Assembly: GCA_015061565.1 (NCBI GenBank)
Contig: SUWI01000026.1
Span: 1 to 33,679 of the forward strand
Direction: 5' to 3'
Source of the DNA: Lentisphaerota bacterium
GTDB lineage: Bacteria > Verrucomicrobiota > Lentisphaeria > Victivallales > UBA1829
Length of the DNA: 33,679 nucleotides
Shown piece after piece: positions 2,634 to 20,677 of this stretch; within the stretch, counting starts at the first letter, position 1, and each line of letters opens with the position of its first letter. Below the pieces are notes generated by a model. The model ran no database searches, was not told the origin of the DNA, and worked only from the letters and a program-made list of their open reading frames with translations. Both the position numbers and the translations under genes were made by a program.

Positions 2634-3455
2634 TCATTGTCCGCCGGAAGAACCGTGCTTCCTCCGGTAATCGCGCGGCGACATCCCCGAATACCGTTTG
2701 AAGGCACGCGAAAAATCCATCATGTTGGCGAATTTGCAGTTGTAAACGATCTCCTTGATCCGCATATCGGTCATGGACAGCAGCTCGGCGGCGCGGACCA
2801 TCTGCTGGTTCCGGACGAATACCGCAGGGGGAAGACCATGCATCTGCCGGAAGAGACGGCGGAAATGATACAGCGTGATCCCGTTTTCAGCGGCCAGCCG
2901 ATGGAAATCGAAATCCCGGAACGGGTCCTTGCGGATCTCGTCGCCGATCTGCCGGATGTGATACGGGTCTTCCTGAACTCGCGATCCCTGCCGAAGCGTC
3001 CGGTTGATCTCCAGCATGATCCGGTCGATGCATTCCGCGATCTCCGCCTGGTAGAATTCCCGGTCCATGCGGTAATAATCGACAGCCTCGACAAAGATCT
3101 CGGTGACCTTCTCCGGATCGGCGGGACGCAGAAAACCTTCCGGACAGACTTCATCCAGCCAGGCCAGCATCCGGTCCGCTTTTGCCCCCAGAAAATCGCA
3201 GTAGAGATGTTCACAGGGGTTGTGCGGTTTTTCAGGCACAGAAAACTGGAATGCTTCGCCCCGGCGCATCCAGAACAGCGCCGGAGCCGTCAGCAGCATG
3301 GATTTGCCCGGACGATTCAGAAATAACTGTCCGCTTCGGATAAATTCGATGGAGTGCGTGACCGGGATGGCAAACGGATATTCCCCGACCGAAAATCCGG
3401 GATAGAAAAACCGCCTCATCAACACCCGAACATTCACATCATCAAAATAATTCAA
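2634..3455 (-). CDS. AraC family transcriptional regulator
   Basis: A 273-residue regulator with an N-terminal cupin-like ligand-binding half (about residues 1-150) and a C-terminal double helix-turn-helix (about 165-268). The second HTH carries the classic AraC signature around 'IKEIVYNCKFANMMDFSRAF' and ends with 'SGMSPRDYRRK'. The start is TTG (3455-3453), supported by a strong Shine-Dalgarno GGGAGG five bases upstream; no better ATG exists near it. The gene is divergent from the operon starting at 3643 across a 187-base AT-rich region holding tandem half-site-like repeats, so it most likely controls that operon in response to a sugar or cyclitol. The ligand cannot be read from the sequence. 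Confidence 0.93.
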   Translation of the reverse strand: MNYFDDVNVRVLMRRFFYPGFSVGEYPFAIPVTHSIEFIRSGQLFLNRPGKSMLLTAPALFWMRRGEAFQFSVPEKPHNPCEHLYCDFLGAKADRMLAWLDEVCPEGFLRPADPEKVTEIFVEAVDYYRMDREFYQAEIAECIDRIMLEINRTLRQGSRVQEDPYHIRQIGDEIRKDPFRDFDFHRLAAENGITLYHFRRLFRQMHGLPPAVFVRNQQMVRAAELLSMTDMRIKEIVYNCKFANMMDFSRAFKRYSGMSPRDYRRKHGSSGGQ

Positions 3456-3466
3456 GACGACCTCCC
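3456..3466 (-). promoter_or_regulatory. Strong Shine-Dalgarno setting a TTG start
   Basis: On the minus strand, GGGAGG (3466-3461) lies five bases before the TTG codon at 3455-3453. It decides the start of the AraC gene at a non-ATG codon. Confidence 0.75.
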
Positions 3467-3550
3467 TTTTTTCCGATAATTATATCCTGCCGCGATGAAA
3501 AATCAAATAAAAAAACGCATAAAAGGCAATAAATATTCTTTTTTGATAAG

Positions 3551-3567
3551 TTTTTGCCCATTTTTGC
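3551..3567 (+). promoter_or_regulatory. Tandem TTTTTGC half-sites, candidate AraC operator
   Basis: Two identical 7-mers TTTTTGC (3551-3557 and 3561-3567) are spaced exactly 10 bases apart, one helical turn. They end two bases before the -35 of the downstream promoter. Related motifs in the other orientation (GCATAAAA at 3517, GCAATAAA at 3526) lie nearer the regulator. The direct-repeat layout abutting the -35 is what class II AraC activators use; the assignment is inference. Confidence 0.5.
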
Positions 3568-3569
3568 TA

Positions 3570-3598
3570 TTTACAAAATCAGGCGGACAGATTATAAT
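3570..3598 (+). promoter_or_regulatory. Sigma-70-like promoter of the ceramidase-like/DegT/IolE-like operon
   Basis: TTTACA (3570-3575), a 17-base spacer and a perfect TATAAT (3593-3598). The transcript would start near 3605, about 38 bases before the first ATG. Confidence 0.75.
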
Positions 3599-3642
3599 AT
3601 GGAACAGACGAACGGTCATGTCTGAAAAAGGAGAAAGACAAG

Positions 3643-4947
3643 ATGTTTAAAATTGGATGTTCGGAAACGGTCCTGGAAGTTCCGCTCTTCACCGAACTTT
3701 ACGGCTACGGTCCGTTTCAGGGCCGCCGCAACCTCGGGGTGCACGATCCGCTTTACTGCCGGGCCGTTTTTTTCGACGACGGGCAGAACCGCGCCATGGT
3801 CATATCCTCGGACCTGTGCACCATGGACCGGCTGTATTCCGCCGAAATGCGGGCGGCGATCTCGCAGGAACACCATATCGCGCCGGAATGTATTGCCTTC
3901 ACGGCGACCCATACGCACAGCGGTCCGGCACTGGGCGTCTCCTGCGGCGTCGGATCCGGAGAACCCGATCCGCGTTTTCAGGAAATCTGGAAGAAAACGG
4001 TTCTGAAGACCGCGGCCGAAGCGCTCCGCGATCCGGAAGAAATCGCGTTTGCTGAAGCCGGGCGTGCGCCGCTCACCCGGAAACTGGGCAAAAACCGCGT
4101 GGAAACGGAGAAAAACGCCACGGACGAAAGCATCCGCTGGATCCGCTTTGTGAGACCGGACGGCACCTGCAAACTGCTGCTGCACAGCCACGGCATCCAC
4201 GGCATCGCGATGAACCTGCCGTTCCATAAATTGGTGTCGGCCGACTGGATGGGTGCGGCCAACCGGAAGATCAAGGAACGCAAGCTCGCTTCCATGCCGC
4301 TGTTTTTCCTCGGCCCCTGCGGCGATGTCAACACCTATACCAGCTGCCATGTCCTGCAGAATGACACTGCCGCCGACGTGATTGCCGACCAATACCTGGC
4401 CGACCTGGAAAAGAGTCTGGCTTCCGGCGGGGAAAAGATCACCGGCCTCACCATCCGCGGCATGCTCAAATCCTGCGAAATGCCCGTGGTGGAACAATCC
4501 GCCGAAAGTCTGCGCAAAGATGCCGAAATTTTTCAGCCGATCAGCGTCCAGCACGCTTTCCGGCTCATCGAAATGGCGGTCGCTCTGGAACACGGGGCCG
4601 ATCTGCGGATCATGAACGATCTGCAGGTGATCCGGTTCGGAAAAGAGATCTCTTTCCTGTTCATCCCCGGCGAATATTTTGTGGAGGACGGCGCCGCGCT
4701 GATGGCACGGTCGCAGGCCGAATACAGTTTCGCGGTCACAGTGGCCAACGGCAACGGCGCCTATTTCCCCTCGGAATCCGATATGAAACGTTATCCGGAT
4801 ATTAAAAGCGCCCTGGACTGTCCCAACAACTGCCGTTTCGGTTTTTATGAGATCTACTGCTATCCGGGACGGCTCAAATTCAAGTATCAGGATCAGATCG
4901 CAGAATTTATCGCAAACAACCTTATAAATATGGAGAAGTCATTATGA
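3643..4947 (+). CDS. Neutral/alkaline ceramidase N-terminal-fold protein, catalytic Ser replaced
   Basis: 434 residues matching the N-terminal catalytic region of neutral ceramidases. Seen: T-H-T-H-S-G-P (His90, His92), a second His cluster 'HSHGIHG' (181-187), 'SADWMG' (199-204), 'PGE' with Glu344, and 'GAYFP' with Tyr374. These positions match the family's zinc site. The family's nucleophile motif G-D-V-S is G-D-V-N here (Asn230), so the serine is missing. There is no signal peptide and no C-terminal beta domain, so the protein is cytoplasmic and far shorter than true ceramidases. A different amide or ester substrate, or a non-hydrolytic role, is likely. GGAG precedes ATG 3643. The stop overlaps the next gene's ATG (ATGA). 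First gene of a three-gene operon divergent from an AraC regulator. Confidence 0.85.
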   Translation: MFKIGCSETVLEVPLFTELYGYGPFQGRRNLGVHDPLYCRAVFFDDGQNRAMVISSDLCTMDRLYSAEMRAAISQEHHIAPECIAFTATHTHSGPALGVSCGVGSGEPDPRFQEIWKKTVLKTAAEALRDPEEIAFAEAGRAPLTRKLGKNRVETEKNATDESIRWIRFVRPDGTCKLLLHSHGIHGIAMNLPFHKLVSADWMGAANRKIKERKLASMPLFFLGPCGDVNTYTSCHVLQNDTAADVIADQYLADLEKSLASGGEKITGLTIRGMLKSCEMPVVEQSAESLRKDAEIFQPISVQHAFRLIEMAVALEHGADLRIMNDLQVIRFGKEISFLFIPGEYFVEDGAALMARSQAEYSFAVTVANGNGAYFPSESDMKRYPDIKSALDCPNNCRFGFYEIYCYPGRLKFKYQDQIAEFIANNLINMEKSL

Positions 4948-6152
4948 ACAAACTGGCAATTGACGGCGGAACCCCGGCTTTTCAGCCGGATGAACTGGCA
5001 AAGCTCGTACCGGCCTGGCCGCTGGTCTACCCGGAAACCGATCAGAAACTGCTGGAAGTCTATCATTCCGGGAAATGGGGTCTCTGCGGCAAATATGAAC
5101 AACTGCTGATGGAGGAATTCGCCGCCTTCCAGGATGCGAAATACTCCGTCTGGATGTGCAACGGCACCACCACGCTCGAATGCGCCCTGCTCGCTCTCGG
5201 CGTCGGACCGGGCGACGAAGTCATCGTCCCCGGCGTCACCTGGATCGCCACCGCGGAAGCCGCGATCTACGTCGGAGCCAAACCGGTGATCGTGGACATC
5301 GATCCGGAGACGCTGTGCCTGGATCCGGCAAAGTTCGAGGAGGCGATCACGCCCCGGACCAAAGCCGTCATTCCCGTGCATCTTTATTCTGCTTTGGCCG
5401 ACATGGACAAGATCAACGCCATCGCGAAAAAACACGGGATCCACGTGGTCGAAGACTGCGCACACGCGCATGGTGCCAAACAGCACGGCAAAGGCGCGGG
5501 TTCGCTCAGTGAATACGGCAGTTTCTCCTTCCAGCTGTCCAAGCTGATGACCGGCGGCGAAGGCGGCTGTCTGATCACCAATGACGAGCATCTGGCCGAC
5601 CTCGCTTTCCGCCTCAGCCATATCGGCAATTCCCGGCTGCATCCGAAAGATCCGCTTCAGACCGGACTTGAGTGCCATCAGTACCGCTTCACGGAATTCC
5701 AGGCGGCGATCATTTACGACCAGCTGCATCATCAGGCCGAGGTCCGCGCCCGGCATCAGGCCGCGGTCAAGATCATCTGCGATATTCTGAAAGACATTCC
5801 TCTGGTTCAGCTTCAGAAATCCTCTTACGAGGACGATCTCCGCGATTATTATTTCTTTACTTTCCTGCTTCGGAAAGATTACCTGAAAGAAGGACTTGAC
5901 CGGTCCTGGATCTTCAACGCTCTCAGGGCAGAAGGCACTCCGCTGGGCTCCGGCTGGGGCTCTCCGCTTTACAAGAGTCCGGCCTGGAATATCCCGGAAA
6001 ATCAATTTATCAAAAAGGATACATCAGTCTGCGAGGATGTGATGTACAACCGGCTGATGGCGACTCTGCATAATCTTCTGCTGGCGGAACCGGCCGTGCT
6101 GACCCGCTGGGCGGAAGCGGTCCGCAAAGTTCTGCTCGCAGCCATGAAGTGA
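4944..6152 (+). CDS. DegT/DnrJ/EryC1/StrS-family PLP aminotransferase
   Basis: 402 residues with the fold-type I pattern of the sugar and cyclitol aminotransferase family. The opening 'LAIDGGTPAF' is typical. 'EDCAHAHGA' contains Asp171, which pairs with the pyridine nitrogen, and 'SFSFQLSKLMTGGEGG' contains the Schiff-base Lys200. The family moves an amino group from Glu or Gln to a keto-sugar or inosose. Full length, with its start fused to the preceding stop (ATGA). Its partners, an IolE-like enzyme downstream and a ceramidase-fold protein upstream, suggest interconversion of amino- and keto-cyclitols or sugars rather than nucleotide-sugar synthesis, since no nucleotidyltransferase lies nearby. 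The substrate is inference. Confidence 0.93.
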   Translation: MNKLAIDGGTPAFQPDELAKLVPAWPLVYPETDQKLLEVYHSGKWGLCGKYEQLLMEEFAAFQDAKYSVWMCNGTTTLECALLALGVGPGDEVIVPGVTWIATAEAAIYVGAKPVIVDIDPETLCLDPAKFEEAITPRTKAVIPVHLYSALADMDKINAIAKKHGIHVVEDCAHAHGAKQHGKGAGSLSEYGSFSFQLSKLMTGGEGGCLITNDEHLADLAFRLSHIGNSRLHPKDPLQTGLECHQYRFTEFQAAIIYDQLHHQAEVRARHQAAVKIICDILKDIPLVQLQKSSYEDDLRDYYFFTFLLRKDYLKEGLDRSWIFNALRAEGTPLGSGWGSPLYKSPAWNIPENQFIKKDTSVCEDVMYNRLMATLHNLLLAEPAVLTRWAEAVRKVLLAAMK

Positions 6153-6172
6153 ACTCAAACCGGGAGAAAATC

Positions 6173-6940
6173 ATGAATTATCAAATCGGAGTTGCCGATT
6201 ACGGCATGGATGTCTGGTACGGCGGGAATCTGAACCTGGAACAGCGTCTGCTTCTGCTGAAAAGCTGCGGGATCGGCGGGATCGAATGGCTGAAAGCGGC
6301 CGATATGGCCGAGGCGGTCCAGAATGCCGCTCTTTTCCACCGCATGGGGATGGATTTCGCATCCTGCAATATGAGTTCGCCGGAACTGACCATGAAATGC
6401 GCCTGCGCTTTCGGGAAGGAATATGTCTGGATCACCACGCCGGCCCGCAGAACTGTCCCGTTCGAGACCTATTGCCGCCAGGCCAATGCGTTTGTGGAAG
6501 CCGCGGCGTATTACGGACTCAAGGCCGCATTGCACAACCATCTCGGCACCAGGGTGGAATCCCAGCAGGAACTGGACGATTTCATGGCCGCGGTGCCGGG
6601 CGCCGCGCTGCTGCTGGATACCGCCCATCTCCATGCCGCCGGCGGCGACTGCATCGGAACCATCCGCAAATACCACGACCGGCTGGCCGCCGTACATTTC
6701 AAGGATTACTTCCTCAAAGATGAAAGCATCGGCCTGGACCGCTGGCCGGAGCGTCTGCGTTTCTGCGAACTCGGCGGCGGCAATGCCGGTATGGATTTCG
6801 CTCCGATCGTCCGCGAGCTCCGCGATCACAACTACAACAAATGGATTCTGATCGAACACGATACCCATCTGCGCGAACCGGAAATCGATTTGAAAAAGAG
6901 CGCGGATATCCTGAAAGATCTGTTCGGGATCCGGCAGTAA
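6173..6940 (+). CDS. IolE-like sugar phosphate isomerase/epimerase (AP-endonuclease-2 TIM barrel)
   Basis: 255 residues of the xylose-isomerase-like TIM barrel superfamily. Motifs 'LHNHLGTRVES' (about 129-139), 'LLDTAHLHAAGGD' (about 153-165), 'VHFKDY' (about 181-186) and a late 'LIEHDTH' supply the usual divalent-metal Glu/Asp/His ligands. The first two resemble inosose dehydratase (IolE) more than hydroxypyruvate isomerase. The frame opens at a GTG (6149) inside the previous gene's end, but ATG 6173 has GGGAG at proper distance and is preferred. Last gene of the operon; a GC-rich hairpin follows 10 bases after the stop. Likely cytoplasmic isomerase, epimerase or dehydratase acting on a keto-sugar or cyclitol from the neighbouring aminotransferase. 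Confidence 0.88.
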   Translation: MNYQIGVADYGMDVWYGGNLNLEQRLLLLKSCGIGGIEWLKAADMAEAVQNAALFHRMGMDFASCNMSSPELTMKCACAFGKEYVWITTPARRTVPFETYCRQANAFVEAAAYYGLKAALHNHLGTRVESQQELDDFMAAVPGAALLLDTAHLHAAGGDCIGTIRKYHDRLAAVHFKDYFLKDESIGLDRWPERLRFCELGGGNAGMDFAPIVRELRDHNYNKWILIEHDTHLREPEIDLKKSADILKDLFGIRQ

Positions 6941-6950
6941 CAGAATTACA

Positions 6951-6971
6951 GCGGGGGGACGATCCCCCCGC
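6951..6971. terminator. GC-rich bidirectional hairpin between convergent genes
   Basis: Perfect 8-bp stem GCGGGGGG / CCCCCCGC with a 5-base loop, lying in the 35-base gap between the convergent stops at 6940 and 6976. No long U-run follows on either side, though the minus-strand continuation is fairly U-rich. A shared terminator is the simplest reading. Confidence 0.65.
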
Positions 6972-6975
6972 AGGA

Positions 6976-9900
6976 TCAGGCAAGCGTGATTTCCACTGAG
7001 GTGTTCTTCGTCAGATCCACCGTTTTCGATTCGCATTTGCCGTTCGCTTTATGGATTGCGATCCGGTGCTTGCCGGTGCCGTGACAACGCACCTTGCCGG
7101 ACTTGAGCACTTCCAGATGCAGTTCGGAATCGTCCGGTTCCAGAACCATGTCCGGCAGGACCGTCAGGATCTTCGCTTCCCGTTCGACCACCTCGGTTTC
7201 GAAAAGGATCCTGCCGGTGTCGACCGTGATTTCCTTCCGGTTCCCAGCCTCGGTCCAATCGGTGTTCAGCAGCATCAGACGGCGGACATTGTTATCCTCG
7301 ATCCATTCGTTCCAGAACACTTCTTTCGACGGATCTTCCACCCGGGTCTGCGGCAGATTCTGCGCCGCCAGATACGCGACCAGCGCACCCATCACCTGAC
7401 GCAATGCTTCGTGTCCGGGATAAGCGTAAGCGGTGACCGTGTAGACCGTGCCTTTGCCCTTGCGGAAACGGCAGACCAGCGGTTCGCCGGTCATGGCATC
7501 CCAAATCACCGGTTCGGCGCCCGCCAGTTCGAGCTTGGCCAGACGGCAGGGACCGTCCTCGTCCGGCGACTTGCTCGGTACGCCGGAAAGGTCGGGAATG
7601 ACATAATCTTCGCGTCCTGCGGCATTCCATTGACCGGAATAACATTTGCCCGGCCCTTTGACTTTCAGTCCGCAGAAATCGCTGAGATCGCCGCCGTTCC
7701 ACAGGTCGAGTTCCATCATGTCTTCCAGAAATTCGCGGCGGACATGTTTGCTGAACTGCGGCAGACCGATCAGGATCGTTCCGCCTTTTTTCACGAAGCG
7801 GAGAAGTTTGTCGTAATCCTCCTGGATCATGGTGTTCCAGCCGAGATGCAGCAGCAGGGAATAACGGTCGAAATAATCTGCCTTCGCCTCGGTCGGGACT
7901 TCATCGAAATCGCCGTAAGGCGTGCCGGAGAAGAAGAATCTGCGTTTGGTGTAATCCTGACGCAGGGGCTGTGTGCTGGCGCCGGGCATCAGCACATCAA
8001 GCAGCTGACGGCATTTTTCCGGCTGGCGGTGCCCCCACAGCGGATCGTTTTTGCCGAAGAGTCCCCACACGGCATAATCGGGCGTCTGGTCGGTGTCGCA
8101 GATGAAACCGTTGAACGGCGCGGCGTAACGGCCTTCCACGAACGCGATCTTCCTCGTCGGCGCACCTTTGCGCGGATGCGTCTTCACGAACCGGAAGAAT
8201 TCGCGCGTCATATCCCGTTTTCCCTTGGTGAGCAGATCGTCCCACGCCTGGCGTTCCTCCTTGAAAAGCAGGAACAGGCTGTCCTCTTCGTAGATCATGG
8301 AAGCGCCCATCATCCAGGGCTGGAACAGCGAAAGGAAATACTGACCCAGATGCGTTTCGAAATAGGGCTGGAACGGGTGCTGGATGGCGATATGCACGCC
8401 CCATTCGCCGTCGGACAAAGCCTCGGCGGCGGGCCGGGCCTGCGAGCAGAGATGCTGGGTATGCGGCACCATGGTCTCCGTGCGGATGAAATCCGCGCCG
8501 GCCATGTAGCAGTAACGGTGTCCGCCTGAAGCGTCGCCGAACGCGGCGCGTTTGCTGACTTTATGGGCACGGTCGATTTCGATTTTCAGCCGTTTGAGAC
8601 AGTGTTCCATGGCGGTCTTCATATCTTCGGAACGCCATTCGAAACCGGGGTCGAACGCATAGACGGCGCCGGGCCATTCGTGGCGGCCGACGCTGTGCAG
8701 CATTTTGCCGGCGCTCTTCGTAAGCGCGCCGCTGTCGAAACTGGTGGCGGCTTCCACATATATCCGGTGGTCGCAGCAGAATTTTCCCCAGCGGGACAGC
8801 AAATCGTCCGGGACTTCCGCCGTGGCATAGGAATCGGGACTGACCTTGCGGAAGGAGCGGAAAACCACCAGATTGCCCAGACGGGTCCGCCAGGTGTAAT
8901 CCAGCAGCCAGTCCATGAAACCGTTGCCGTCATGCGGAACCACGGTCATGTCGTAGCCGACCGTGACTTCCGGCGTTTCATCCTTGAGCGCGTAGACCGC
9001 CGGAATGACGCCCTGCGTGGACGGCGTGGAAACCGGAACGTCTATCCCCGGTTTGGCAATGGAGAAACGGAATTCGTTCCAGCCGGGCTTGAGGTTCAGT
9101 TCGAGCTGTTGTTTTTCCCACTTGACCGTGGTGCGGGCGGCCTTCGCCGCGAAGATGCGTCCGATGAGCGGTTCCCCGGCCAATGCCCAGGGCGGCAGCG
9201 AAAATTCCAGATGCCGGTGTTCCGACTGCTGCATCACCAGACGCGTCACCAGCAGGAAGAATCTGCCGTTGTTGTTCTTCAGCGCGAAACGGTGCTTGCC
9301 GGAAACCGCGGGGAAACGGAGCCACACATCTTCCAGCAGCTGCATGAAACTGTCATGCTTGCGGAAATAGTGGACGCCCTGCGCGACGGGCTTGCCGTCG
9401 CAGAACAGGGTCAGCGGAAAATCGTCGTGGATCTGCTTTTCGTGTTCGGGCGTGTATTCCGGAGCAGCCATGGCGACCACATGCAGCAGCGTTTCATCCT
9501 GGTCGCCGCGGGTTTCCGGCAGTTCAGCCGTGAATTCGGCCTGCTTGCCGGGAGCGATCCAGGCGGTGCGCATCCGCGCCCAGTCCCGCACCGGGACCTT
9601 GGAAGACGCCAGCTGATCGGCCTCGATGACAAATTGTCCCGGCCGGGCGGCAGGCAGGAACCAGTAATAACCGGTACGGGTCACGATCACATGGCAGCCC
9701 AGATATTTCGGTCCGACCGGGAATTCGATGCGTCCCTCCGAGAGGATCTCCTGCGCCTTGAAATCAAAAGTTCCGGAAAGCGTGACCAGTTTGAAAACGG
9801 CATTTTCCGGCACGTCGGCTTCGATCCGGATCCCGGCGAGACCGCGGTGCGTGGTGCTTTTCCAGCTGGGGGAGTCCAGCAGGGTTTCCTTGGCGCAATG

Positions 9901-10059
9901 GCCCGGGCCATACCAGATCACCGGATAATCGAGCTGAAAAACTTTTTTGATCTTGCCGGCCGAACATTCCAGATGTCCGTCCCAATGATAATACGGATGG
10001 TAATGCCGGCGGGAATACAGGTACTGATACCCCCAGTCGATTCGGAAATTCAGTTTCAT
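6976..10059 (-). CDS. Large putative glycosidase-like protein, family not recognised
   Basis: 1027 residues, no signal peptide seen, starting at an ATG preceded by AAGGAGT. I do not recognise a named family. The N-terminal half (about 1-380) is rich in aromatic beta-strand-like segments ('YYWFLPAARPGQFV', 'RHLEFSLPPWALAGEPLIG'). The middle (about 380-640) has a TIM-barrel-like pattern with acidic residues ('FDPGFEWRSEDM', 'YCYMAGADFIRTETM'). Residues about 740-800 ('LLLHLGWNTMIQEDYDKLLRFVKKGGTILIG') resemble the glutamine-amidotransferase-like beta-galactosidase domain. The end is beta-rich. This order suggests a cytoplasmic glycoside hydrolase-like enzyme, but no catalytic pair can be named. 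It is a monocistronic gene on the minus strand, convergent with the IolE-like operon, and may take part in the same local carbohydrate use. Confidence 0.85.
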   Translation of the reverse strand: MKLNFRIDWGYQYLYSRRHYHPYYHWDGHLECSAGKIKKVFQLDYPVIWYGPGHCAKETLLDSPSWKSTTHRGLAGIRIEADVPENAVFKLVTLSGTFDFKAQEILSEGRIEFPVGPKYLGCHVIVTRTGYYWFLPAARPGQFVIEADQLASSKVPVRDWARMRTAWIAPGKQAEFTAELPETRGDQDETLLHVVAMAAPEYTPEHEKQIHDDFPLTLFCDGKPVAQGVHYFRKHDSFMQLLEDVWLRFPAVSGKHRFALKNNNGRFFLLVTRLVMQQSEHRHLEFSLPPWALAGEPLIGRIFAAKAARTTVKWEKQQLELNLKPGWNEFRFSIAKPGIDVPVSTPSTQGVIPAVYALKDETPEVTVGYDMTVVPHDGNGFMDWLLDYTWRTRLGNLVVFRSFRKVSPDSYATAEVPDDLLSRWGKFCCDHRIYVEAATSFDSGALTKSAGKMLHSVGRHEWPGAVYAFDPGFEWRSEDMKTAMEHCLKRLKIEIDRAHKVSKRAAFGDASGGHRYCYMAGADFIRTETMVPHTQHLCSQARPAAEALSDGEWGVHIAIQHPFQPYFETHLGQYFLSLFQPWMMGASMIYEEDSLFLLFKEERQAWDDLLTKGKRDMTREFFRFVKTHPRKGAPTRKIAFVEGRYAAPFNGFICDTDQTPDYAVWGLFGKNDPLWGHRQPEKCRQLLDVLMPGASTQPLRQDYTKRRFFFSGTPYGDFDEVPTEAKADYFDRYSLLLHLGWNTMIQEDYDKLLRFVKKGGTILIGLPQFSKHVRREFLEDMMELDLWNGGDLSDFCGLKVKGPGKCYSGQWNAAGREDYVIPDLSGVPSKSPDEDGPCRLAKLELAGAEPVIWDAMTGEPLVCRFRKGKGTVYTVTAYAYPGHEALRQVMGALVAYLAAQNLPQTRVEDPSKEVFWNEWIEDNNVRRLMLLNTDWTEAGNRKEITVDTGRILFETEVVEREAKILTVLPDMVLEPDDSELHLEVLKSGKVRCHGTGKHRIAIHKANGKCESKTVDLTKNTSVEITLA

Positions 10060-10125: not shown

Positions 10126-11439
10126 TCAACCTTTCATCCGGGCCAGCATGTTCCGGATCAGGTCCGGATCGTCGGCGAAATAGAGATGGATGTAACTGCC
10201 GAACACCTTGCCGCGCATGCCGCCGCAGTCGGACTGACGACCGTGCGCATCGGAACTGTGCCACAGATAGGGACCCGGCGGCGGTTCGATCAGCGAGGAA
10301 TAATGGAACTCATGACCGCGTCCCCTGCCCCATGGACCGGTCACTTCCCGATAACCCAGCGAAGCCAGCTTGCGGTTCATGACCGCCCGGCCCGGCAGCA
10401 GGCCCAGTCCGGGCAGCGTTTCTCCGGCAAAATTTTCCAGGCTTTCCAGCAGATAAAGATAACCGCCGCATTCACCGTAAACAAAATGATTTTCCGCAAA
10501 GTTCCGGATGGATGCCGTCATGGTCTCGTTCGCATTGATATCCTTCATATACAATTCCGGATAGCCGCCGCCCAGATAGATGCCGTCCAGATTTTCCGGC
10601 AGGGCCGGATCATGCAAAGGAGAAAACGGCACGATTTCCACGCCGTGCTGCCGCAGGGCGGCCAAATTCGCCTCGTAATAAAAACAGAACGCTTCGTCGT
10701 GCGCCACCCCGAGACGCAGGGTCGCGGGGGGGTCTTTTTCGACCGGCAGACAGGAGATCTCACCGCGCGTCATATCCAGCAGCTTTTCCAGGTCGACCGT
10801 TCTTTCGATCTTTTCGGCGAGCTCATTCAGCCAGGATTCATCCAGTTTTCCGACCGAAAGGCCGAGATGCCGCTCCGGCAGGATCAGGTGTTCATCCCGC
10901 AGCAGGTACCCCAGCAGCGGCGGCAGTGAAGCGCTTTCCAGTGCCTTCTGCAGGATTTCCGCATGACGGGCCGAACCGACCTTGTTGGCCAGAACGCCGA
11001 TGATCTTCACCTCGGGATGCCATTGTGAAAATCCTTTCACCAGCGGCGCGATGGATCCGCCGATCCCCTGCGCATTGACCGTCAGGATCACCGGCAGGGA
11101 AAGCTTCGCGGCCAGTTCCGCACAGGAGGCGTCAAGACGGTCCGGATAAATGCCGTCGAACAAGCCCATCACACCCTCGACCACGGCCGCATCGCATCCC
11201 TGCGTCCGGCGGCAGAATTCCCGTTCCGAACCCAGAAAGACATCCAGATTCCAGGACACCGCGCCTGCGGCCTGACGATGGAACAGCGGATCGATATAAT
11301 CCGGGCCGCATTTGAACGGAACCACGTTCATGCCTCGCTGTTTCAGCGCCCGCAGGATCCCGAGCGTCAAAGTGGTCTTGCCGCTGCCGGAATTGGTTCC
11401 GGCGATCATGAAACGGGGAATTGATTTATTCTCCGACAC
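10126..11439 (-). CDS. cbiA: Cobyrinic acid a,c-diamide synthase
   Basis: ATP- and glutamine-dependent amidation of the a and c side chains of (cobalt-)cobyrinic acid in corrin synthesis. The 437-residue protein has the N-terminal P-loop G-T-N-S-G-S-G-K-T-T (14-23), 'EGVMGLFDG' (88-96), and a C-terminal type-1 glutamine amidotransferase domain with 'GGYPELY' (291-297), nucleophile Cys324 in 'YGECGGY' and His376 in 'RGHEFHY'. The length is normal. Last gene of the minus-strand cobalamin operon; its start lies inside the end of the methyltransferase gene (14-base overlap). In the anaerobic route this is the step after ring completion by the upstream genes. Confidence 0.96.
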   Translation of the reverse strand: MSENKSIPRFMIAGTNSGSGKTTLTLGILRALKQRGMNVVPFKCGPDYIDPLFHRQAAGAVSWNLDVFLGSEREFCRRTQGCDAAVVEGVMGLFDGIYPDRLDASCAELAAKLSLPVILTVNAQGIGGSIAPLVKGFSQWHPEVKIIGVLANKVGSARHAEILQKALESASLPPLLGYLLRDEHLILPERHLGLSVGKLDESWLNELAEKIERTVDLEKLLDMTRGEISCLPVEKDPPATLRLGVAHDEAFCFYYEANLAALRQHGVEIVPFSPLHDPALPENLDGIYLGGGYPELYMKDINANETMTASIRNFAENHFVYGECGGYLYLLESLENFAGETLPGLGLLPGRAVMNRKLASLGYREVTGPWGRGRGHEFHYSSLIEPPPGPYLWHSSDAHGRQSDCGGMRGKVFGSYIHLYFADDPDLIRNMLARMKG

Positions 11440-12181
11440 CGTACTTCTCCCGATAGCCGCGCAGACAGAACATTCTGCCGTTGGCGATTCTGGTTTGACT
11501 GTTTCCGATCAGCACCAGCGTGGTCATCTGAACTTCGTCGAACGGGAACTGATCCAGGGTAAAAAACTGTATTTTCTGTCCTTCGCGCCAGGCATCGCGC
11601 ACGAGCGCGCCGGGCAGCTGATCCCCGCCATATTTCCGGAACACCTCCACCGCATATTCCAGCAGGACATGCCGCCGGCGGCTTTTCGGATTGTAAAGCG
11701 CCACAGGCAGATCGAGCTGCGCGATTGCTTCCAGACGCCGGCGGATCACCGCTTCCGGGGTCATCAGTTCGGAAAGGCTCAGCACGGCAAAATCATTCAT
11801 CAACGGCGCTCCGGCCAGGGCGGCACAGGACAACGCCGCGGTAATGCCCGGCACCACTTCGATCTCGATTCCGGAAAACCGTTCTTCCTGCGTCAGCTCC
11901 ATCAGCAGTCCGGCCATGCCGTAAACGCCCGCATCGCCGGACGACACCACCGCCACGGTCTCACCGGCCAGCGCGGCTTCCAACGCCCGCGTGCAGCGTT
12001 CCACTTCCTGCCGCATCCCGCCCGGAATGATCTTTTTTCCTTCGATCAGCGGCGCGATCTGATCCAGATACAGCTGGTATCCGGCCACGGCAGTGCACAT
12101 CCGCAAGACCTTTTCCGCCTGCGGAGTCAGCAAATCCAACGAACCCGGCCCGATCCCGACCGCATATACCTTAGCTGCCAT
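11426..12181 (-). CDS. cobJ: Precorrin-3B / cobalt-precorrin-3 C17-methyltransferase
   Basis: SAM-dependent ring-contracting methyltransferase of the tetrapyrrole methylase superfamily (CobJ/CbiH). In 251 residues: N-terminal 'VYAVGIGPGSLDLLTP', 'VVSSGDAGVYGMAG' (about 78-91), 'VVPGITAALSCAALAGAPL', and the CobJ/CbiH-typical 'LYNPKSRRR' (about 162-170). The presence of cbiG next door argues for the anaerobic (CbiH) version. Overlaps cbiFG by 11 bases and cbiA by 14, so translation is coupled. There is no C-terminal fusion domain, unlike some CbiH proteins. Confidence 0.95.
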   Translation of the reverse strand: MAAKVYAVGIGPGSLDLLTPQAEKVLRMCTAVAGYQLYLDQIAPLIEGKKIIPGGMRQEVERCTRALEAALAGETVAVVSSGDAGVYGMAGLLMELTQEERFSGIEIEVVPGITAALSCAALAGAPLMNDFAVLSLSELMTPEAVIRRRLEAIAQLDLPVALYNPKSRRRHVLLEYAVEVFRKYGGDQLPGALVRDAWREGQKIQFFTLDQFPFDEVQMTTLVLIGNSQTRIANGRMFCLRGYREKYGVGE

Positions 12182-13958
12182 GATTTCCTCCCGCGATGGC
12201 TGCTGTCACATCGCCGCAGCGCTGTTTTTCCACATACAGCCGGGCGTTTTCCCCTGCGGCCAGCAGGGCGGACGCCTCGGAAACCGACCGGATCCCGAGA
12301 TTCCGCTCCGCCGCTTGGGACGGATTCGGCACCTCGACCGCGTTCAGCTTTTCCGCGGGGAAAAACTGCAGCGGCAAATTCATTTTCCGGGCGAATTCCA
12401 GCAGACCGGTTTCCTCCCGTTTCACCTCCGCCGAGGCAATCGCACACAGATCCTCCGGGAAGAATCCGGCTTTTTCCAGAACGGCATCAACCACCTCGCC
12501 GATGCGGTCGGCGGTGATCCCTTTCCGGCAGCCGATCCCGAGCACGAAACGAGGCTGGTGCAGACGCAGTTCCGATCCGCCGGACCGGACCAGGATCAGA
12601 CCGTCCGTCCGTTCTTTGACCAGAGTCACGTCGGGATATCCGGCAAAATTTGCCTCGAACAGGCGGGCGGACATTTCCACTTCGACCGGTTCGCCGTTGA
12701 CCACCGCCGCCGCGATCCCGGTCAGGGTCTCCGGCGTTTCGATCACACAGTGATGCTCTTCGGCGAACACATCGAACGCGGGCAATTTCTGCACATCGCT
12801 GGCGGTGGTGATGACCGCCTGTCCGCCGGTGATCCGGGCGATGTCGTGCGCCAGCGCGTTGCCGCCGCCGATATGGCCGGAAAGCAGGCTGACCGCGTAA
12901 TTGCCTTTTTCATCGCAAACGACCACGGCCGGATCGCGTTTTTTATCCTCGCAGAGTTTTCCGATATGCCGCACCGCAATGCCCGCGGCCATGACGAACA
13001 CGAACGCATCGTAATTCCGCCAGTTCGAATCCAGGGTCTCACCGAATTTTCCGGCAGCAAAGGAACTGGTATGCAGACTCGGCACCGCATCGGCAAATTT
13101 CTCCGGCACGAACAGCACGGCGTCCGACAGCCCCGAGGCGATCTCGGCCGCTTTCAGACTGGCCTGACGCGTCAGGGCGAAAACCGCCGTCTGGCCGCGG
13201 AATTTATGATGCCGGTAGCCGGTGGCAAATTCCGAATCGTAAAGTTTGGAGAGCGCACCGTCTTTGCGCAACACATCCCCGATCACGATCATGGCTTGCC
13301 GTTTGATGCCGGCTTCGGCGACTTTCGAAGCAATGTCGGCAATGGTGCCGCGCACAATGAGTTCGTTCTCCCAGCTGGCACGATAGACCACCGCGGCGGC
13401 GGTATCGGGCGAACGGCCCGCAGCCAGCAGTTTCCGGCACAGTTTCTCCATATCCGACACGCTCAGGAAAATGCACAGCGTGCTGCCGTGCGCCGCCAGC
13501 AGTTCGAGCGATTCCTTTTCCGGCACGGGAGTCCGGCCCGCATCCCGGGTCAGGATCACGGTCTGGGAGATCTCCGGCATGGTCAGTTCGGTCTGCAAAG
13601 CCGCCGCGGCGGCGAAAACGCTGCTCACGCCCGGGATCACGGTATAAGGAATACCCGCCTGGTCCAGCAGGTGGAACTGTTCCCCGACCGCACCGTAAAC
13701 CGAAGGATCGCCGGTGTGCAGACGCACCACCATTTTCCCGGCCAGATAATCGCGTTTGAGGATCGTCAGCACCTCGTCGAGCGACATTTTCGCACTGTTA
13801 TGGAATTCGGCATGGCCGGCCAGTTCCAGGATCTTTTCATTCACGAGCGAACCGGCATAGACCACCGTATCCGCCTCGCGCAAAGCCGCGGCGCCTTTCA
13901 GGGTGATCAGTTCCGGATCACCGGGACCGGCACCGACAAAGGTGATCTTTCCGCTCAT
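12171..13958 (-). CDS. cbiFG: CbiF-CbiG fusion: C11-methyltransferase plus cobalt-precorrin-5A hydrolase
   Basis: 595 residues holding two enzymes. Residues about 1-255 are a tetrapyrrole methylase of the CobM/CbiF type ('ITFVGAGPGDPELITLKG', 'RLHTGDPSVYGA', 'TVIPGVSSVFAAAAAL'). Residues about 257-595 are CbiG: 'VFALTRQASLKAAEIA', central 'VMAAGIAVRHIGKL' and 'VSLLSGHIGGGNALA', and a C-terminal domain starting 'VLGIGCRKGI'. CbiF methylates C11 of cobalt-precorrin-4 and CbiG opens the lactone to release acetaldehyde, so the fusion joins consecutive steps. CbiG marks the oxygen-independent pathway. The ATG overlaps the upstream cbiET stop (ATGA). No frameshift lies at the junction, so it is a genuine fusion. 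Confidence 0.95.
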   Translation of the reverse strand: MSGKITFVGAGPGDPELITLKGAAALREADTVVYAGSLVNEKILELAGHAEFHNSAKMSLDEVLTILKRDYLAGKMVVRLHTGDPSVYGAVGEQFHLLDQAGIPYTVIPGVSSVFAAAAALQTELTMPEISQTVILTRDAGRTPVPEKESLELLAAHGSTLCIFLSVSDMEKLCRKLLAAGRSPDTAAAVVYRASWENELIVRGTIADIASKVAEAGIKRQAMIVIGDVLRKDGALSKLYDSEFATGYRHHKFRGQTAVFALTRQASLKAAEIASGLSDAVLFVPEKFADAVPSLHTSSFAAGKFGETLDSNWRNYDAFVFVMAAGIAVRHIGKLCEDKKRDPAVVVCDEKGNYAVSLLSGHIGGGNALAHDIARITGGQAVITTASDVQKLPAFDVFAEEHHCVIETPETLTGIAAAVVNGEPVEVEMSARLFEANFAGYPDVTLVKERTDGLILVRSGGSELRLHQPRFVLGIGCRKGITADRIGEVVDAVLEKAGFFPEDLCAIASAEVKREETGLLEFARKMNLPLQFFPAEKLNAVEVPNPSQAAERNLGIRSVSEASALLAAGENARLYVEKQRCGDVTAAIAGGNHGS

Positions 13959-15163
13959 TTCCCGGCTCCCTTCCGCCAGACGCCGACGGCGATCGGATTT
14001 TCCGCCCGGATCATCGAACTGCCCGGCAGGATCTCCTCGGCCCGGCTGATCTGAACCGTCAGGAACTCCTGCCGGTGTTCGCGCAGACCCGCGCTCATCA
14101 TCCCGATAGTGTCAAGCATGACAGCCGTCATCACGAGAATGCCGCCGGGCGCCAGCCGGTCGAAAGCTTTTTCAAAAATATCTTTGCCGCCTCCGCCGAT
14201 GAAGATCCGGGTCGGGCGCGGCAGTTCGTCGAGGAGCTCGCCGGCTTTGCCCTGACAGATCCGGACATTGGTCAGGCCTTCCCTGGCAATATTGGCAGTG
14301 ATATGCTGAACCCGTTCGGGGTCTTTTTCAACGGCGATGACCTGCAGTCCTGGACACGCTCCGGCGGCCTCGATCCCGACCGAACCGCTGCCGGCGCCCA
14401 GATCCCACAGCACCCCCGGAGCCAGCCGCAGTTTGGAAAGCACGATGGCGCGGATCTCAGGATGGGTAATCATATTCCGGTGATGGTCGTATGAATCGTC
14501 CGGCAGACCGAGCGGCAGGCACGGCTTTTCCGTCCGGTCGTCCGGCAGCAGCGCCAGTACGGAAAGCGAAACGCCGGCCGCGGGATCCGCGGCGATCTCC
14601 GAAAGGGAACCGCGCAATACATGTTCATCCGGCAGACCGAGATTGCATCCGCAGGCCGCCGCCCGATCCGCAGCCGCGGGAAAAGCGGCAATCAGTTCAG
14701 CGGCGATCTTCCGGGCCGGACGCTGCGTGTCACCGTAAACCGCCGCCAGGGATGCGCTCAGGATAGCCCGGAAAGGCACGGGATCTTTCCGTCCGTGCAG
14801 AGAAAACAGCCGGACCTGTTCCCAGGGCTGCCCCAACCGGGCAAAGAGTTTCTGGAACGCGGTCGGCGCGGGATGGAAAACGAGCTGTTCCGCGGGGACG
14901 AAGCGCAGCAGGGTCGAACCGATGCCGTAATAAAGCGGATCGCCGGTGGCCAGGACTACGGTCCGGAGTTCCCGGGCCAGCAGTCCGGGCAGACGCTGGA
15001 CGATTTTGCCGTCCACAGCGGCTTTTTCCGCAGCCGTGGGGATCTGCGGCAGTTCCAGCAGACGCGGGGCACCTATCACCAGCTGAGCCTGGCTCAGCAG
15101 CTGTTCCGCCTGGCCGCTGAAACCATCGTCCCAGCCGACCACATCGATTTTCCGTTCTTTCAT
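13955..15163 (-). CDS. cobL: Precorrin-6Y C5,15-methyltransferase/decarboxylase (CbiE-CbiT fusion, CobL)
   Basis: 402 residues. Residues about 1-205 are the CbiE tetrapyrrole methylase ('VLATGDPLYYGIGS', 71-83). Residues about 215-402 are CbiT, a Rossmann methyltransferase with 'MITHPEIRAIVLSKL' (231-245), the SAM loop 'DLGAGSGSVGIEAA' (254-267) and 'FIGGGGKD'. Together they methylate C5 and C15 and decarboxylate the C12 acetate. The fusion is common (CobL). First gene of the minus-strand cobalamin operon; the SD is weak (GAAG about 12 bases before ATG 15163). A promoter-like pair lies 40-70 bases upstream. I see no cobalamin riboswitch box in the leader. Confidence 0.95.
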   Translation of the reverse strand: MKERKIDVVGWDDGFSGQAEQLLSQAQLVIGAPRLLELPQIPTAAEKAAVDGKIVQRLPGLLARELRTVVLATGDPLYYGIGSTLLRFVPAEQLVFHPAPTAFQKLFARLGQPWEQVRLFSLHGRKDPVPFRAILSASLAAVYGDTQRPARKIAAELIAAFPAAADRAAACGCNLGLPDEHVLRGSLSEIAADPAAGVSLSVLALLPDDRTEKPCLPLGLPDDSYDHHRNMITHPEIRAIVLSKLRLAPGVLWDLGAGSGSVGIEAAGACPGLQVIAVEKDPERVQHITANIAREGLTNVRICQGKAGELLDELPRPTRIFIGGGGKDIFEKAFDRLAPGGILVMTAVMLDTIGMMSAGLREHRQEFLTVQISRAEEILPGSSMIRAENPIAVGVWRKGAGK

Positions 15164-17801: not shown

Positions 17802-18611
17802 ATGATCAAGATCATGCCGAAAATCATCACGCTGCTGGAACTCTTTGCCTCGGGCGGGGAATATTCTTTTTCGGAGATCACCGCAAAAACCGGTCTGACC
17901 CGTTCGAATGTGTCGCATCTGCTGCAGGCGCTGTGCGAAGAACAGATGCTGGAAAAAGTCCAATACGGGAAATACCGCCGCGGCAGCCGGCTCACCCGGT
18001 TGGGTCTGAGCGTCAACCCATGGAAAGAACTGATCGACAAAGCGGGCCGCTGCGCGGACAATCTGATGCTGTGGCTGAATGAACTGGCAGTCGTCGGGAT
18101 GCGGGATCAGGAAAAACGGCTGACGCTGGTCAAGCGCAAACCGGTCAAGGCGCTGCAGGTGGAACAGGAAAACGGGAAACTCTATCCTGCGGACTGGTAC
18201 AGCACGGCCAACGGCCGGGTCCTGCTGGCCTTTGCCCCGCCGGCAACGGTCCGCCGGATCGTGCGCCGCTGCGGTCTGCCCGCCCGGCAGGTCTGGCGCG
18301 AAGCCGCTACTCTGCCCAAGCTCGAACGGGAACTGGCCGTCATCCGGAAACAGGGTTATGCCGCCATGGAGGTGGACGAGCTGATCCGTGCGCTGGGAGT
18401 GCCGGTCCGGGACGCAGGCGGGGAAACGGTGATGAGCCTGGCCACCGCCTATCCGGTGTTCACCTGCCGGGAAAGCGAATCCGAGATCCTGGCCCGGATG
18501 AAAGAACTGGCTGCGGAACTGGAAGAAGAACTGAAAATCGGAGATATCCGGATCGCCGACTTGAAAAGCGGACTTTCCGGCAGATCCGGACCAACAAGGG
18601 GAAATTCGTGA
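17802..18611 (+). CDS. IclR family transcriptional regulator
   Basis: 269 residues: an N-terminal winged helix (about 5-65; 'YSFSEITAKTGLTRSNVSHL' is the helix-turn-helix) and a C-terminal GAF-like effector domain ('YSTANGRVLLAFAPP', 'IRKQGYAAMEVDE', 'LGVPVRDAGGETVMSLA'), the standard IclR layout. A charged tail of about 20 residues is extra. ATG 17802 has GGGAG nine bases upstream. The stop overlaps the next ATG (TGATG), so it leads an operon with DUF4838, GNAT and PIG-L genes and probably regulates itself and them from the palindrome at 17771. The effector is unknown; IclR proteins often sense sugar acids or aromatic acids. Confidence 0.93.
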   Translation: MIKIMPKIITLLELFASGGEYSFSEITAKTGLTRSNVSHLLQALCEEQMLEKVQYGKYRRGSRLTRLGLSVNPWKELIDKAGRCADNLMLWLNELAVVGMRDQEKRLTLVKRKPVKALQVEQENGKLYPADWYSTANGRVLLAFAPPATVRRIVRRCGLPARQVWREAATLPKLERELAVIRKQGYAAMEVDELIRALGVPVRDAGGETVMSLATAYPVFTCRESESEILARMKELAAELEEELKIGDIRIADLKSGLSGRSGPTRGNS

Positions 18612-20674
18612 TGAAAAAACTGCATATCGTTCTGAAATATCCGGATTCCGCCCGCTTATGGCGGGTCTGGGCGGACAGTGAAAACGAGATCGATTTCCGC
18701 CATGATCCGGCAGCCGGAGCGCGCTGCACCGCGGCGTATGCCGCCTCGGAACTGAAATATTTTCTGGGCAAAGCCATGCCCGGTCTGGAAATCGGCATTG
18801 GCGAAAGACCGCCGGAGGATGCCTGCTTCATCGAACTGGAGATCCAGGGCAATGACTTCACCGGAAGTTTCGAACTGGAGCCGCAGGAAAACGGCATCCG
18901 GGTGACCGGATACGGACGCAACGGCCTGCTCAACGGAATTTATGAACTGCTGCGGATCCAGGGCTGGCGCTGGCTCGAACCGGGCATTTACGGGGAAGCC
19001 GCACCGGCAAATCCCACGCTGGATTTTCTGACGGCGAAGGGAAAATTCGCGCCGTCGTTCCGGCACAGGATGATCGACCAGTATCGGGAATCGGACGACT
19101 CGGCCGATCTGCTCCGCTGGTTCTCGCGTAACCGGGTCAACACGGTGTTCCGGAAAGCCGCCACGGGCAAATTGGCCGACAAGCTGGGCATGCTCTCCCG
19201 GAAAGGCGGACATCTGCTCCAGAAGATCATGGCGCCGGACACGCCGATGGAAGACGGACGCACCATCTGGGAAGCGCATCCGGACTGGTATGGTCTGCCC
19301 GCGGACGGCAAACGCGACAAGGCGCTGGCCATGAAGACGCAGCTGTGTCTTTCGAACGGGGAAATGATCCGCTGGCTGTCCGCCCGGATCTGCACGATCC
19401 TCCGAACCGAAATGAAAGACATCGACATCCTCGATCTGTGGGGATTCGACACCTGGGGCAAGACCTGCAGCTGTCCGCACTGTGCGGACCTGGGCAACGG
19501 GTCCGACCAGAATCTGAGGCTGCTTTCGGCGATCCAGGCTTACCTGCAGCGGCATCTCGACCGGCCGGTCATGCTCAATACGATCTCCTACGAAGGAACG
19601 GCCACGATGTCCCCGCCGACCAGGCCGGCGCCGCGCAATCTGATCGACACCGGCTGCATGGTGATCTTTTATCCGATCAAACGGTGTTACCGGCATCAGC
19701 TGAAGGACCGTTCGTGCACCTTGAATCAGGTTTATGACGATTCGATGACCGGCTGGCACCGCATGGCGCCGGAACTGGCCCTGTGGTCGGGCGAGTATTA
19801 CAATGTTTCCAAATACGAGGATCTGCCGCTGGTTTTCGGACGGCTGATCCCGGCGGAAATGCGGTATTATCATGCCCGCGGCTGCACGGGCGCGACCTAC
19901 ATGCACAATCTCTCCCCGAACTGGGGTGTCCGCGCCCTGACCCAGCTGATGCATACGCAGTTCGCCTGGGATGTCGATATGGATGAAGATGCTTTTCTGT
20001 CCGAATATTTCGAGCGCAAATACGGCCGGTATGCCGCCCGCATGAGGAAAATCTACGGCCGGCTGGAAGCGGCAGGCAAGGATATCGCCCTGCGCCGCAA
20101 CTGGGGCGATTCGCTCCTGACCCGCCTGCTGCAGATGGAAGGCAACCGTCCGGCGGAGGAGATCACGGCGGCCCACTATGCCGGGGAGGCGGAGCTCCTG
20201 CAGGCGCTGAAAGAGGCCGTCCGGAATGCGGATGCGGCGGTGTCCGGTCTGCGGCAGGTGCTGGCCGCGGAACAGCGCCGCAACTGGAAAGATCTGCCGG
20301 CGATCCGGGATATTCCGCCTGTGGTGACCCCGCTCGAGCTGGAAAAACTCCGCTATTACGACAAGATGGAATACCGGATCGGCGAGGATCTGCGCGGGGC
20401 ACTTTACGGGGCGGAAATTCTGCGGCTCGAGTATGTCCTGCTGAATTACCACAATGCGCTCCGTCTCGGACGCAGGGGAAGCCGCGAATGGCTCGCCGTT
20501 GAAAAAACAGCAGCGAGGCTGAATGAATGGTATATCCCGCTGACTTACGAGAATCCGACGCCCGGCGTTCAGATCAAGGACGGCTTGAGCCGTTCCCAGC
20601 TGCGGATGTGCATCACCCGCTGCCGCGGCGCAAGGATCAAAGCTGTCAATTCAAAGATAAAACGAAAGGATTGA
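18611..20674 (+). CDS. DUF4838 protein, alpha-glucuronidase-like
   Basis: 687 residues, without a signal peptide. The N-terminal domain (about 1-140) resembles the GH67/GH20 accessory fold, with 'GIRVTGYGRNGLLNGIYELL' and 'GWRWLEPG' as in alpha-glucuronidases. Next comes the DUF4838 barrel: 'GGHLLQKIMAP', 'WEAHPDWYGLPADGKRDK', 'QLCLSNGEM', then 'DLWGFDTWGKTCSCPHC' with a C-x-C-x2-C cluster (Cys286, 288, 291) that probably binds a metal. The C-terminal third is helical. DUF4838 is uncharacterised but grouped with glycoside hydrolases. The cytoplasmic location, the IclR regulator and the acetyltransferase and deacetylase neighbours suggest action on an imported, acetylated uronic-acid oligosaccharide, by inference. 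ATG 18611 is chosen over GTG 18608 because it overlaps the IclR stop and has AAGGGG upstream. Confidence 0.88.
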   Translation: MKKLHIVLKYPDSARLWRVWADSENEIDFRHDPAAGARCTAAYAASELKYFLGKAMPGLEIGIGERPPEDACFIELEIQGNDFTGSFELEPQENGIRVTGYGRNGLLNGIYELLRIQGWRWLEPGIYGEAAPANPTLDFLTAKGKFAPSFRHRMIDQYRESDDSADLLRWFSRNRVNTVFRKAATGKLADKLGMLSRKGGHLLQKIMAPDTPMEDGRTIWEAHPDWYGLPADGKRDKALAMKTQLCLSNGEMIRWLSARICTILRTEMKDIDILDLWGFDTWGKTCSCPHCADLGNGSDQNLRLLSAIQAYLQRHLDRPVMLNTISYEGTATMSPPTRPAPRNLIDTGCMVIFYPIKRCYRHQLKDRSCTLNQVYDDSMTGWHRMAPELALWSGEYYNVSKYEDLPLVFGRLIPAEMRYYHARGCTGATYMHNLSPNWGVRALTQLMHTQFAWDVDMDEDAFLSEYFERKYGRYAARMRKIYGRLEAAGKDIALRRNWGDSLLTRLLQMEGNRPAEEITAAHYAGEAELLQALKEAVRNADAAVSGLRQVLAAEQRRNWKDLPAIRDIPPVVTPLELEKLRYYDKMEYRIGEDLRGALYGAEILRLEYVLLNYHNALRLGRRGSREWLAVEKTAARLNEWYIPLTYENPTPGVQIKDGLSRSQLRMCITRCRGARIKAVNSKIKRKD

Positions 20675-20677
20675 ACC

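Follow-up and report, generated by a model that had tools for sequence, protein, structure and literature searches.

A ceramidase-fold amidohydrolase and an inosose-aminotransferase-like DegT protein form a recurrent gene pair in Lentisphaeria, possibly for the breakdown of N-acylated ring amines

The 33,679-nucleotide contig SUWI01000026.1 (hereafter the window), from a Lentisphaerota genome of 5.45 Mb that is spread over 396 contigs and is 86% complete (G000), carries three adjacent forward-strand genes, here called CER, DEGT and TIM, which an original prediction had described as a cassette of three for an aminocyclitol or amino-sugar pathway. Comparison with related genomes shifts the emphasis: the conserved core is the CER-DEGT pair, joined by a variable third gene, and it is this pair, not the trio, that constitutes the stronger finding. 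CER (positions 3643 to 4947; 434 amino acids, aa) is a ceramidase-fold metallo-amidohydrolase consisting of the catalytic domain only (PF04734, 5e-9); DEGT (4944 to 6152; 402 aa) is a DegT/StrS aminotransferase dependent on pyridoxal phosphate (PLP) and of the inosose-aminotransferase type (PF01041, 3e-86, 290 bits); and TIM (6173 to 6940; 255 aa) is an IolE-like, xylose-isomerase-type TIM barrel (PF01261, 1e-18). CER and DEGT occur together far beyond chance, with the full trio present but rarer, and our tentative reading, which we hold to be plausible without calling it probable, is that the operon breaks down an N-acylated aminocyclitol or a free (non-nucleotide) amino sugar, by N-deacylation, then transamination, then isomerisation or dehydration.

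The association was measured in 13 genomes picked for their CER homologues, with any PF04734 gene set against any PF01041 gene: 45 of 109 CER-type genes lie no more than 2.5 kb from a DegT gene, 44 of them on the same strand, against 2.28 expected from a simple density estimate (coordinates were copied by hand, and a PF04734 row that was a further fragment of a frame already counted was removed). The Pfam ceramidase model had no match in 14 control genomes. Among 197 genomes of the class, the CER type is found in 32, and in 26 of these CER and DEGT are paired at one locus or more (the G384 pair has a CER truncated at the contig start), a count in which the loci of G327 lay outside those examined; no pair was found at the examined loci of G125, G262, G328 and G331, nor at the one locus examined of the two in G345. 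In a draw at the level of the phylum, the CER profile has matches in 14 of 288 genomes, and two of these from outside the class (G072 and G118) have the pair with distant CERs.

A single contig scan by close-relative patterns, of a kind that cannot show distant phyla, yielded 30 named relatives with CER, all of them metagenome-assembled genomes of Lentisphaeria, Lentisphaerae or Victivallales and mostly from rumen and hindgut. A same-strand DEGT neighbour accompanies CER at 22 of these 30 loci (at L087 two other ceramidase-domain genes intervene), and what follows is variable: the third gene is TIM in five pairs, another TIM barrel in three (at L069 it stands behind two amidohydrolases) and a Gfo/Idh dehydrogenase in five, while three pairs end near a contig edge and six have no such third gene. 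The complete trio is present in 10 of the 197 class genomes (G000, G002, G008, G015, G021, G087, G114, G368, G381 and G384), which span five genera and two families; these counts rest on tblastn because the simple gene caller missed TIM at L066/L199, L204 and L208. Conservation of the trio, which the original prediction had proposed to look for, is thus real, but the pair is wider than the trio, and the idea of a cassette of three gives way to that of a pair with a changeable partner (an IolE-like TIM, another TIM barrel, Gfo/Idh or none).

Several of these loci have further features of their own. One genome (G041; L054 and L055) contains 18 ceramidase-domain genes, one row being merged, three of them consecutive in L054. 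In one DEGT-CER operon two adjacent Amidohydro_2 proteins separate CER from a TIM barrel (L043:13346-14910), and a block comprising an FAD-dependent oxidoreductase and proteins that match no Pfam family stands upstream of two other DEGT-CER operons (L079:2-5787 and L052:4026-9790), with similar-sized genes at the same place in L088.

The combination is also found on plasmids of haloarchaea. On one strand of a Natronococcus plasmid the gene order is alcohol dehydrogenase (ADH), DegT, CER, TIM barrel, and the DegT and CER frames share 4 bp; the CER is annotated as hypothetical, and a Rid deaminase, a sulfatase, a GNAT protein and a GH20 protein are encoded nearby. The models that best match the ADH and the TIM barrel are those of the IolM/IolO inositol pathway, namely scyllo-inosose 3-dehydrogenase IolM for the former (204 bits, cut-off 450) and IolO, followed by IolE, for the latter (51 bits, cut-off 300), but both scores fall below their NCBIfam cut-offs and the likeness was seen in the archaeal cluster only. 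Plasmids of Haladaptatus and Halosolutus carry CER and DegT genes about 15 and 23 kb apart, respectively, and within the stretches viewed no DegT accompanied an Agrobacterium plasmid CER and no CER a Chloroflexota plasmid DegT.

The predicted structure of CER is that of the neutral-ceramidase catalytic fold with an intact metal site, rather than that of a generic hydrolase. An AlphaFold2 model built from 27 sequences (predicted local distance difference test score, pLDDT, 91.6) aligns over the whole length of CER with Pseudomonas neutral ceramidase 2zws (Z 39.7 over 388 residues, root-mean-square deviation 3.3) and also matches human ceramidase (Z 36.3); the Foldseek E-value for the ceramidase fold is 1.3e-26. 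With neutral/alkaline ceramidases (2zws, 4wgk; PF04734) CER shares the catalytic-domain fold, the zinc ligands and a THTHSG motif, but at 434 aa it is shorter, its identity over the fold match is 15–20%, and its partners are sugar enzymes; the model matches only residues 4–486 of 2zws, the ceramidase C-terminal domain being absent, the Pfam match covers only the N-terminal part of the family model, and the curated ceramidase model NF041649 scores 20.4 bits against a cut-off of 1200. Residues H90, H186, E344 and Y374 are invariant in 27 aligned rows, and the metal residues are likewise invariant in 19 broader rows that include four haloarchaeal proteins and one Agrobacterium protein. Their counterparts in the Pseudomonas enzyme are His97, His204, Glu411 and Tyr448, which we take to be its zinc ligands, with His97 and Glu411 aligned directly, the second histidine mapped through the human enzyme, and the tyrosine placed by eye across a short gap. 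No signal peptide was obvious by eye (no predictor was used), and CER is probably cytoplasmic. The natural reading of such a model is a small-molecule amidase.

DEGT is most similar to enzymes that act on cyclitols. In both single-sequence and profile searches, 2-deoxy-scyllo-inosose aminotransferases rank first among solved structures, the best profile matches being 5w71, 2c7t and 5w70 (317 bits, against 260 for the best nucleotide-sugar enzyme). The sequence contains the motifs SFSFQLSK, with the PLP lysine (K200, invariant), and EDCAHAHG, and it shares with BtrR (2c7t) and 5w70 a glutamine three residues before that lysine and the EDCA-x-(A/S)-HG motif. In a tree of 47 rows, for which the reference rows from PDB are partial and the MosB sequence was not included, a single clade of 23 rows (support 100/100) takes 20 of the 26 rows labelled as CER-paired; this clade, BtrR/5w70 and a long-branched paralogue (G000 C88) make up a 26-row group (91/95) whose inner order is unresolved, with the window DEGT beside, not inside, the two-member BtrR/5w70 clade. 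The pair DegTs of Natronococcus, G118 and G239 fall just outside this group and within a wider one of 33 rows (94/92), and those of G000 C224, G000 C215 and G072 fall outside the wider group as well. Three members of the 23-row clade (G000 C300, C40 and C73) have no CER labelled beside them; the C300 copy (L147:18077-19285) shows 89% identity with the DEGT of the window and adjoins a related divergent AraC gene, and neither CER nor TIM was found there, on a contig that ends about 400 bp after the gene.

The original prediction had named a grouping with nucleotide-sugar enzymes as its refutation; instead, DEGT stands with the inosose aminotransferases, and the tree puts ArnB, WecE and the perosamine and rhizobial nucleotide-sugar enzymes in a group of their own (96/98). 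A nucleotide-sugar role was rejected on this separation, the profile scores and the neighbourhood (25 of the 26 called window genes). Two rhizobial plasmid DegT matches were examined as possible rhizopine genes; both have exopolysaccharide and nucleotide-sugar neighbours and were therefore taken as nucleotide-sugar controls. MosB, a DegT-like protein of rhizopine synthesis, transaminates free inososes, including scyllo-inosose, in vitro (PMC6668481), so that DegT-type chemistry on non-nucleotide ring ketones is established; the use of free inososes is the likeness to the role proposed for DEGT. Compared with the BtrR, 5w70 and MosB systems, DEGT differs in belonging to a separate clade, and no gene for the synthesis of an antibiotic or a rhizopine was recognised in its surroundings.

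The third gene, TIM, more likely starts at ATG 6173, which has GGGAGA just upstream and from which its relatives align, than at GTG 6149. Its best PDB match by sequence is IolE, the myo-inosose-2 dehydratase (3cny, 9zmu), with which it shares the fold and an H-x-H-x-GT region, and by structure comparison IolE (Z 25.1) is tied with Art22 (24.9); however, the NCBIfam IolE model gives 80 bits against a cut-off of 290, which is not reached. Profile matches to members of the same TIM-barrel family that act on 3-keto-glycosides are also significant (2-hydroxy-3-keto-glucal hydratase 8ro4, the 3-keto-glucoside lyases 8tcd and 8tct, and a 3-ketoglucoside 4-epimerase), but they are weaker than the sequence match to IolE, and the trio includes no 3-keto-glycosidase gene. 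The reaction may therefore be a dehydration or an isomerisation, a choice that these matches do not fix. TIM homologues occur in 60 of the 197 class genomes, and among 11 lone TIM loci with longer flanks a Gfo/Idh dehydrogenase follows TIM in three (L205, L211 and L212) and a PIG-L gene in one; further along the L212 cluster come another TIM barrel, a short-chain dehydrogenase/reductase resembling D-mannonate oxidoreductase, and UxuA. Because dehydrogenase and transaminase partners both make ketones, the substrate of TIM is probably a ketone, and the pathway may exit into hexuronate metabolism, both of these points drawing on few loci.

A hexuronate exit agrees with the result for IolD, which did not exceed its cut-off in any of seven genomes (best 228 bits against 715), whereas 3 of 14 control genomes pass; with a completeness of 56–93%, the seven genomes do not prove that IolD is missing. 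The result makes the classical inositol route unlikely, and canonical inositol catabolism was rejected as the role of the operon.

These elements can be combined into the following scheme. An AraC regulator would control a catabolic operon in which CER, as a zinc amidohydrolase, would free a ring amine from its N-acyl group. DEGT would then turn this amine into a ring ketone, either an inosose or a keto sugar in free form, with an alpha-keto acid taking up the amino group, and the IolE-like TIM would dehydrate or isomerise the ketone for entry into sugar-acid metabolism. What is seen directly is the arrangement of the genes, their families, the predicted folds, the conservation of catalytic residues and the recurrence of CER with DEGT; the catabolic direction, the metal, the acyl group, the substrate and the order of the reactions are what we infer. 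Third genes, where present, fit ketone chemistry. As to the substrate, the IolM-like dehydrogenase and IolO/IolE-like barrel of Natronococcus, at their scores below cut-off, favour a cyclitol, and the several copies per genome together with glycosidase-like, sulfatase and PIG-L neighbours favour glycan amino sugars. The chain of release, transamination and isomerisation or dehydration that had been proposed for the trio fits well, but its ordinary inosose version is argued against by the lack of IolD above cut-off. A broader proposal, possible but more doubtful than the scheme for this operon, is that those short ceramidase-family proteins that have the catalytic domain only are ring-amine N-deacylases and not lipid enzymes, and that together with a deaminating DegT they make up a modular breakdown of N-acyl aminocyclitols or unusual amino sugars in gut Lentisphaeria and haloarchaea, ending in hexuronate-type metabolism and not in the classical inositol pathway.

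A number of observations weigh against this catabolic scheme. The operon contains no transporter, the seven-genome search that found no IolD above cut-off counts here too, and some relatives of TIM act on 3-keto sugars, as lyases, hydratases or epimerases. The nearest characterised relatives of DEGT, BtrR and 5w70, are presumably biosynthetic enzymes. As to linkage, DEGT adjoins only 10 of 30 TIM loci among those listed; the nearest relative found, L059 (75% CER identity), has CER-DEGT and no TIM there; in one genome (G125) none of the 13 ceramidase-domain genes neighbours any of the 14 DegT genes; and 15 examined loci of this CER type have no DEGT beside them (L067, L068, L074, L082-L086, L095, L110, L133, L190, L194, L196 and L197, of which L074 and L086 are cut by a contig end). 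The Natronococcus CER is 24% identical and falls below the Pfam cut-off (30.2 against 32.1 bits), although its metal residues are kept. Finally, G000 itself has seven CER genes at six DegT loci, a copy number that suggests a common and varied class of substrates rather than rare inosamines.

The last point leads to the nearest competing explanation, that the operon acts on an amino sugar not bound to a nucleotide (such as a 3- or 4-amino-deoxy sugar of microbial glycans), with DEGT yielding a 3- or 4-keto sugar and TIM acting as a 3-keto-sugar lyase, hydratase or epimerase. The matches of TIM to the 3-keto-glycoside enzymes fit this well, as do the glycosidase-like, sulfatase, PIG-L and DUF4838 genes near several pairs and the several paralogous pairs per genome, which suggest varied glycan substrates; but IolE is the closest sequence match of TIM (with the fold tied with Art22) and DEGT is nearest to inosose aminotransferases, and we regard this explanation as unlikely, if a serious contender. 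It is improbable that the operon is biosynthetic, with DEGT aminating an inosose to an aminocyclitol, TIM supplying or editing the ketone, and CER tailoring or recycling an acyl group. BtrR and 5w70, the nearest characterised relatives of DEGT, and MosB do belong to biosynthesis; set against this, Pfam recognised no cyclitol synthase (2-deoxy-scyllo-inosose synthase included) and no glycosyltransferase gene in the 25 window genes scanned, nor any nucleotide-sugar gene, and an N-deacylase-like partner together with IolE-, UxuA- and IolM-like neighbours in related clusters points to breakdown.

The two remaining alternatives concern CER itself. The IolM/IolO-type pathway of Thermotoga includes a ring-opening hydrolase, and the Natronococcus CER shares an operon with IolM-like and IolO-like genes, just where such a hydrolase would be expected, so that CER might be this hydrolase and not an amidase, with DEGT feeding inosamines into the pathway. 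This is quite improbable, given that the metal site of CER is of the amidase type, that CER was seen with an IolM-like gene in that one cluster only and with DegT in many, and that the company of a transaminase makes most sense if an amine is involved. Membership of PF04734 and the fold would also accommodate a genuine amidase of sphingolipid type, with transamination of the amine that it releases, yet the missing C-terminal domain, the very low score against the curated ceramidase model, the lack of a signal peptide obvious by eye and the company of sugar enzymes make this very improbable indeed.

The genetic setting of the operon is compatible with a unit of its own. CER and DEGT overlap by 4 bp (CER stop 4947, DEGT start 4944) and 20 bp separate DEGT from TIM, and the discrete unit spans 2634 to 6971: a divergent AraC-family regulator on the reverse strand (2634 to 3455; PF12833, 2.7e-19; read at its longest, it begins with TTG at 3455), the three genes, and a hairpin at the end. 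In the divergent intergenic region a promoter-like site (TTTACA, 17 nt, TATAAT; 3570 to 3598, forward strand) agrees with the sigma-70 consensus at 11 of 12 positions; it is a consensus match only, and a weak one, as the stretch holds four such sites against 2.4 expected. The hairpin (6951 to 6971; 9 pairs, -20.3 kcal/mol, z -4.2) has no T run and was not reported by the terminator scan; lying between the operon and a convergent gene, it is a possible two-way terminator for both. Because of the divergent AraC gene, the hairpin before the convergent gene and, weakly, the near-consensus promoter-like site, the unit looks from its sequence like a self-contained operon. AraC homologues (181–394 bits) adjoin the related operons L045, L050, L059, L131, L132 and L137, and one adjoins the unpaired DEGT paralogue at L147; none was seen next to the trios of L047 and L048. 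The three reading frames lie where the original prediction placed them; the tightly coupled gene set with its AraC gene and the three family identities are as originally described, and so is the lack of nucleotide-sugar synthesis genes, none of which was recognised by Pfam scans in 25 of the 26 called window genes (one 86-aa gene was left out, and 4 of the 25 match no Pfam family). Gene neighbourhoods here come partly from our own simple gene caller, the 26 window genes among them. Overall, the outline of the earlier interpretation survives the refutation tests that it had set for itself, and the interpretation as a whole is partly supported.

The rest of the window holds several other units. 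The convergent gene (6976 to 10059) encodes a 1027-aa protein that matches no Pfam or NCBIfam model; homologues occur in 41 of the 197 class genomes, with relatives convergent to a CER also in L074 and L190, and it was set aside as a pathway member since its best homologues beyond the window's own are not on CER contigs. Tightly packed cobalamin genes follow at 10126 to 15163 (a CbiA/CobB-like protein, a tetrapyrrole methylase, a methylase-CbiG fusion and a methylase-methyltransferase fusion), and at 17802 to 22317 an IclR regulator, a DUF4838 protein, a GNAT acetyltransferase and a PIG-L deacetylase are consecutive, possibly a further amino-sugar unit.

The enzyme families themselves are already known, and among the open-licence literature matches listed we recognised no paper on the CER-DEGT(-TIM) combination. 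CER, DEGT and TIM are small, single-domain proteins, so the idea is open to direct in vitro testing. If it is true, a role in breakdown would be added both to the ceramidase family and to the DegT/StrS family, which is known mainly for building amino sugars and aminocyclitols, and the CER-DEGT pair would help to explain bacterial genes that are easily read as lipid enzymes from their "ceramidase" annotation and are probably mis-named. The pair, with its IolE-like or Gfo/Idh partners, would then also point to a nitrogen and carbon source of the rumen and hindgut.

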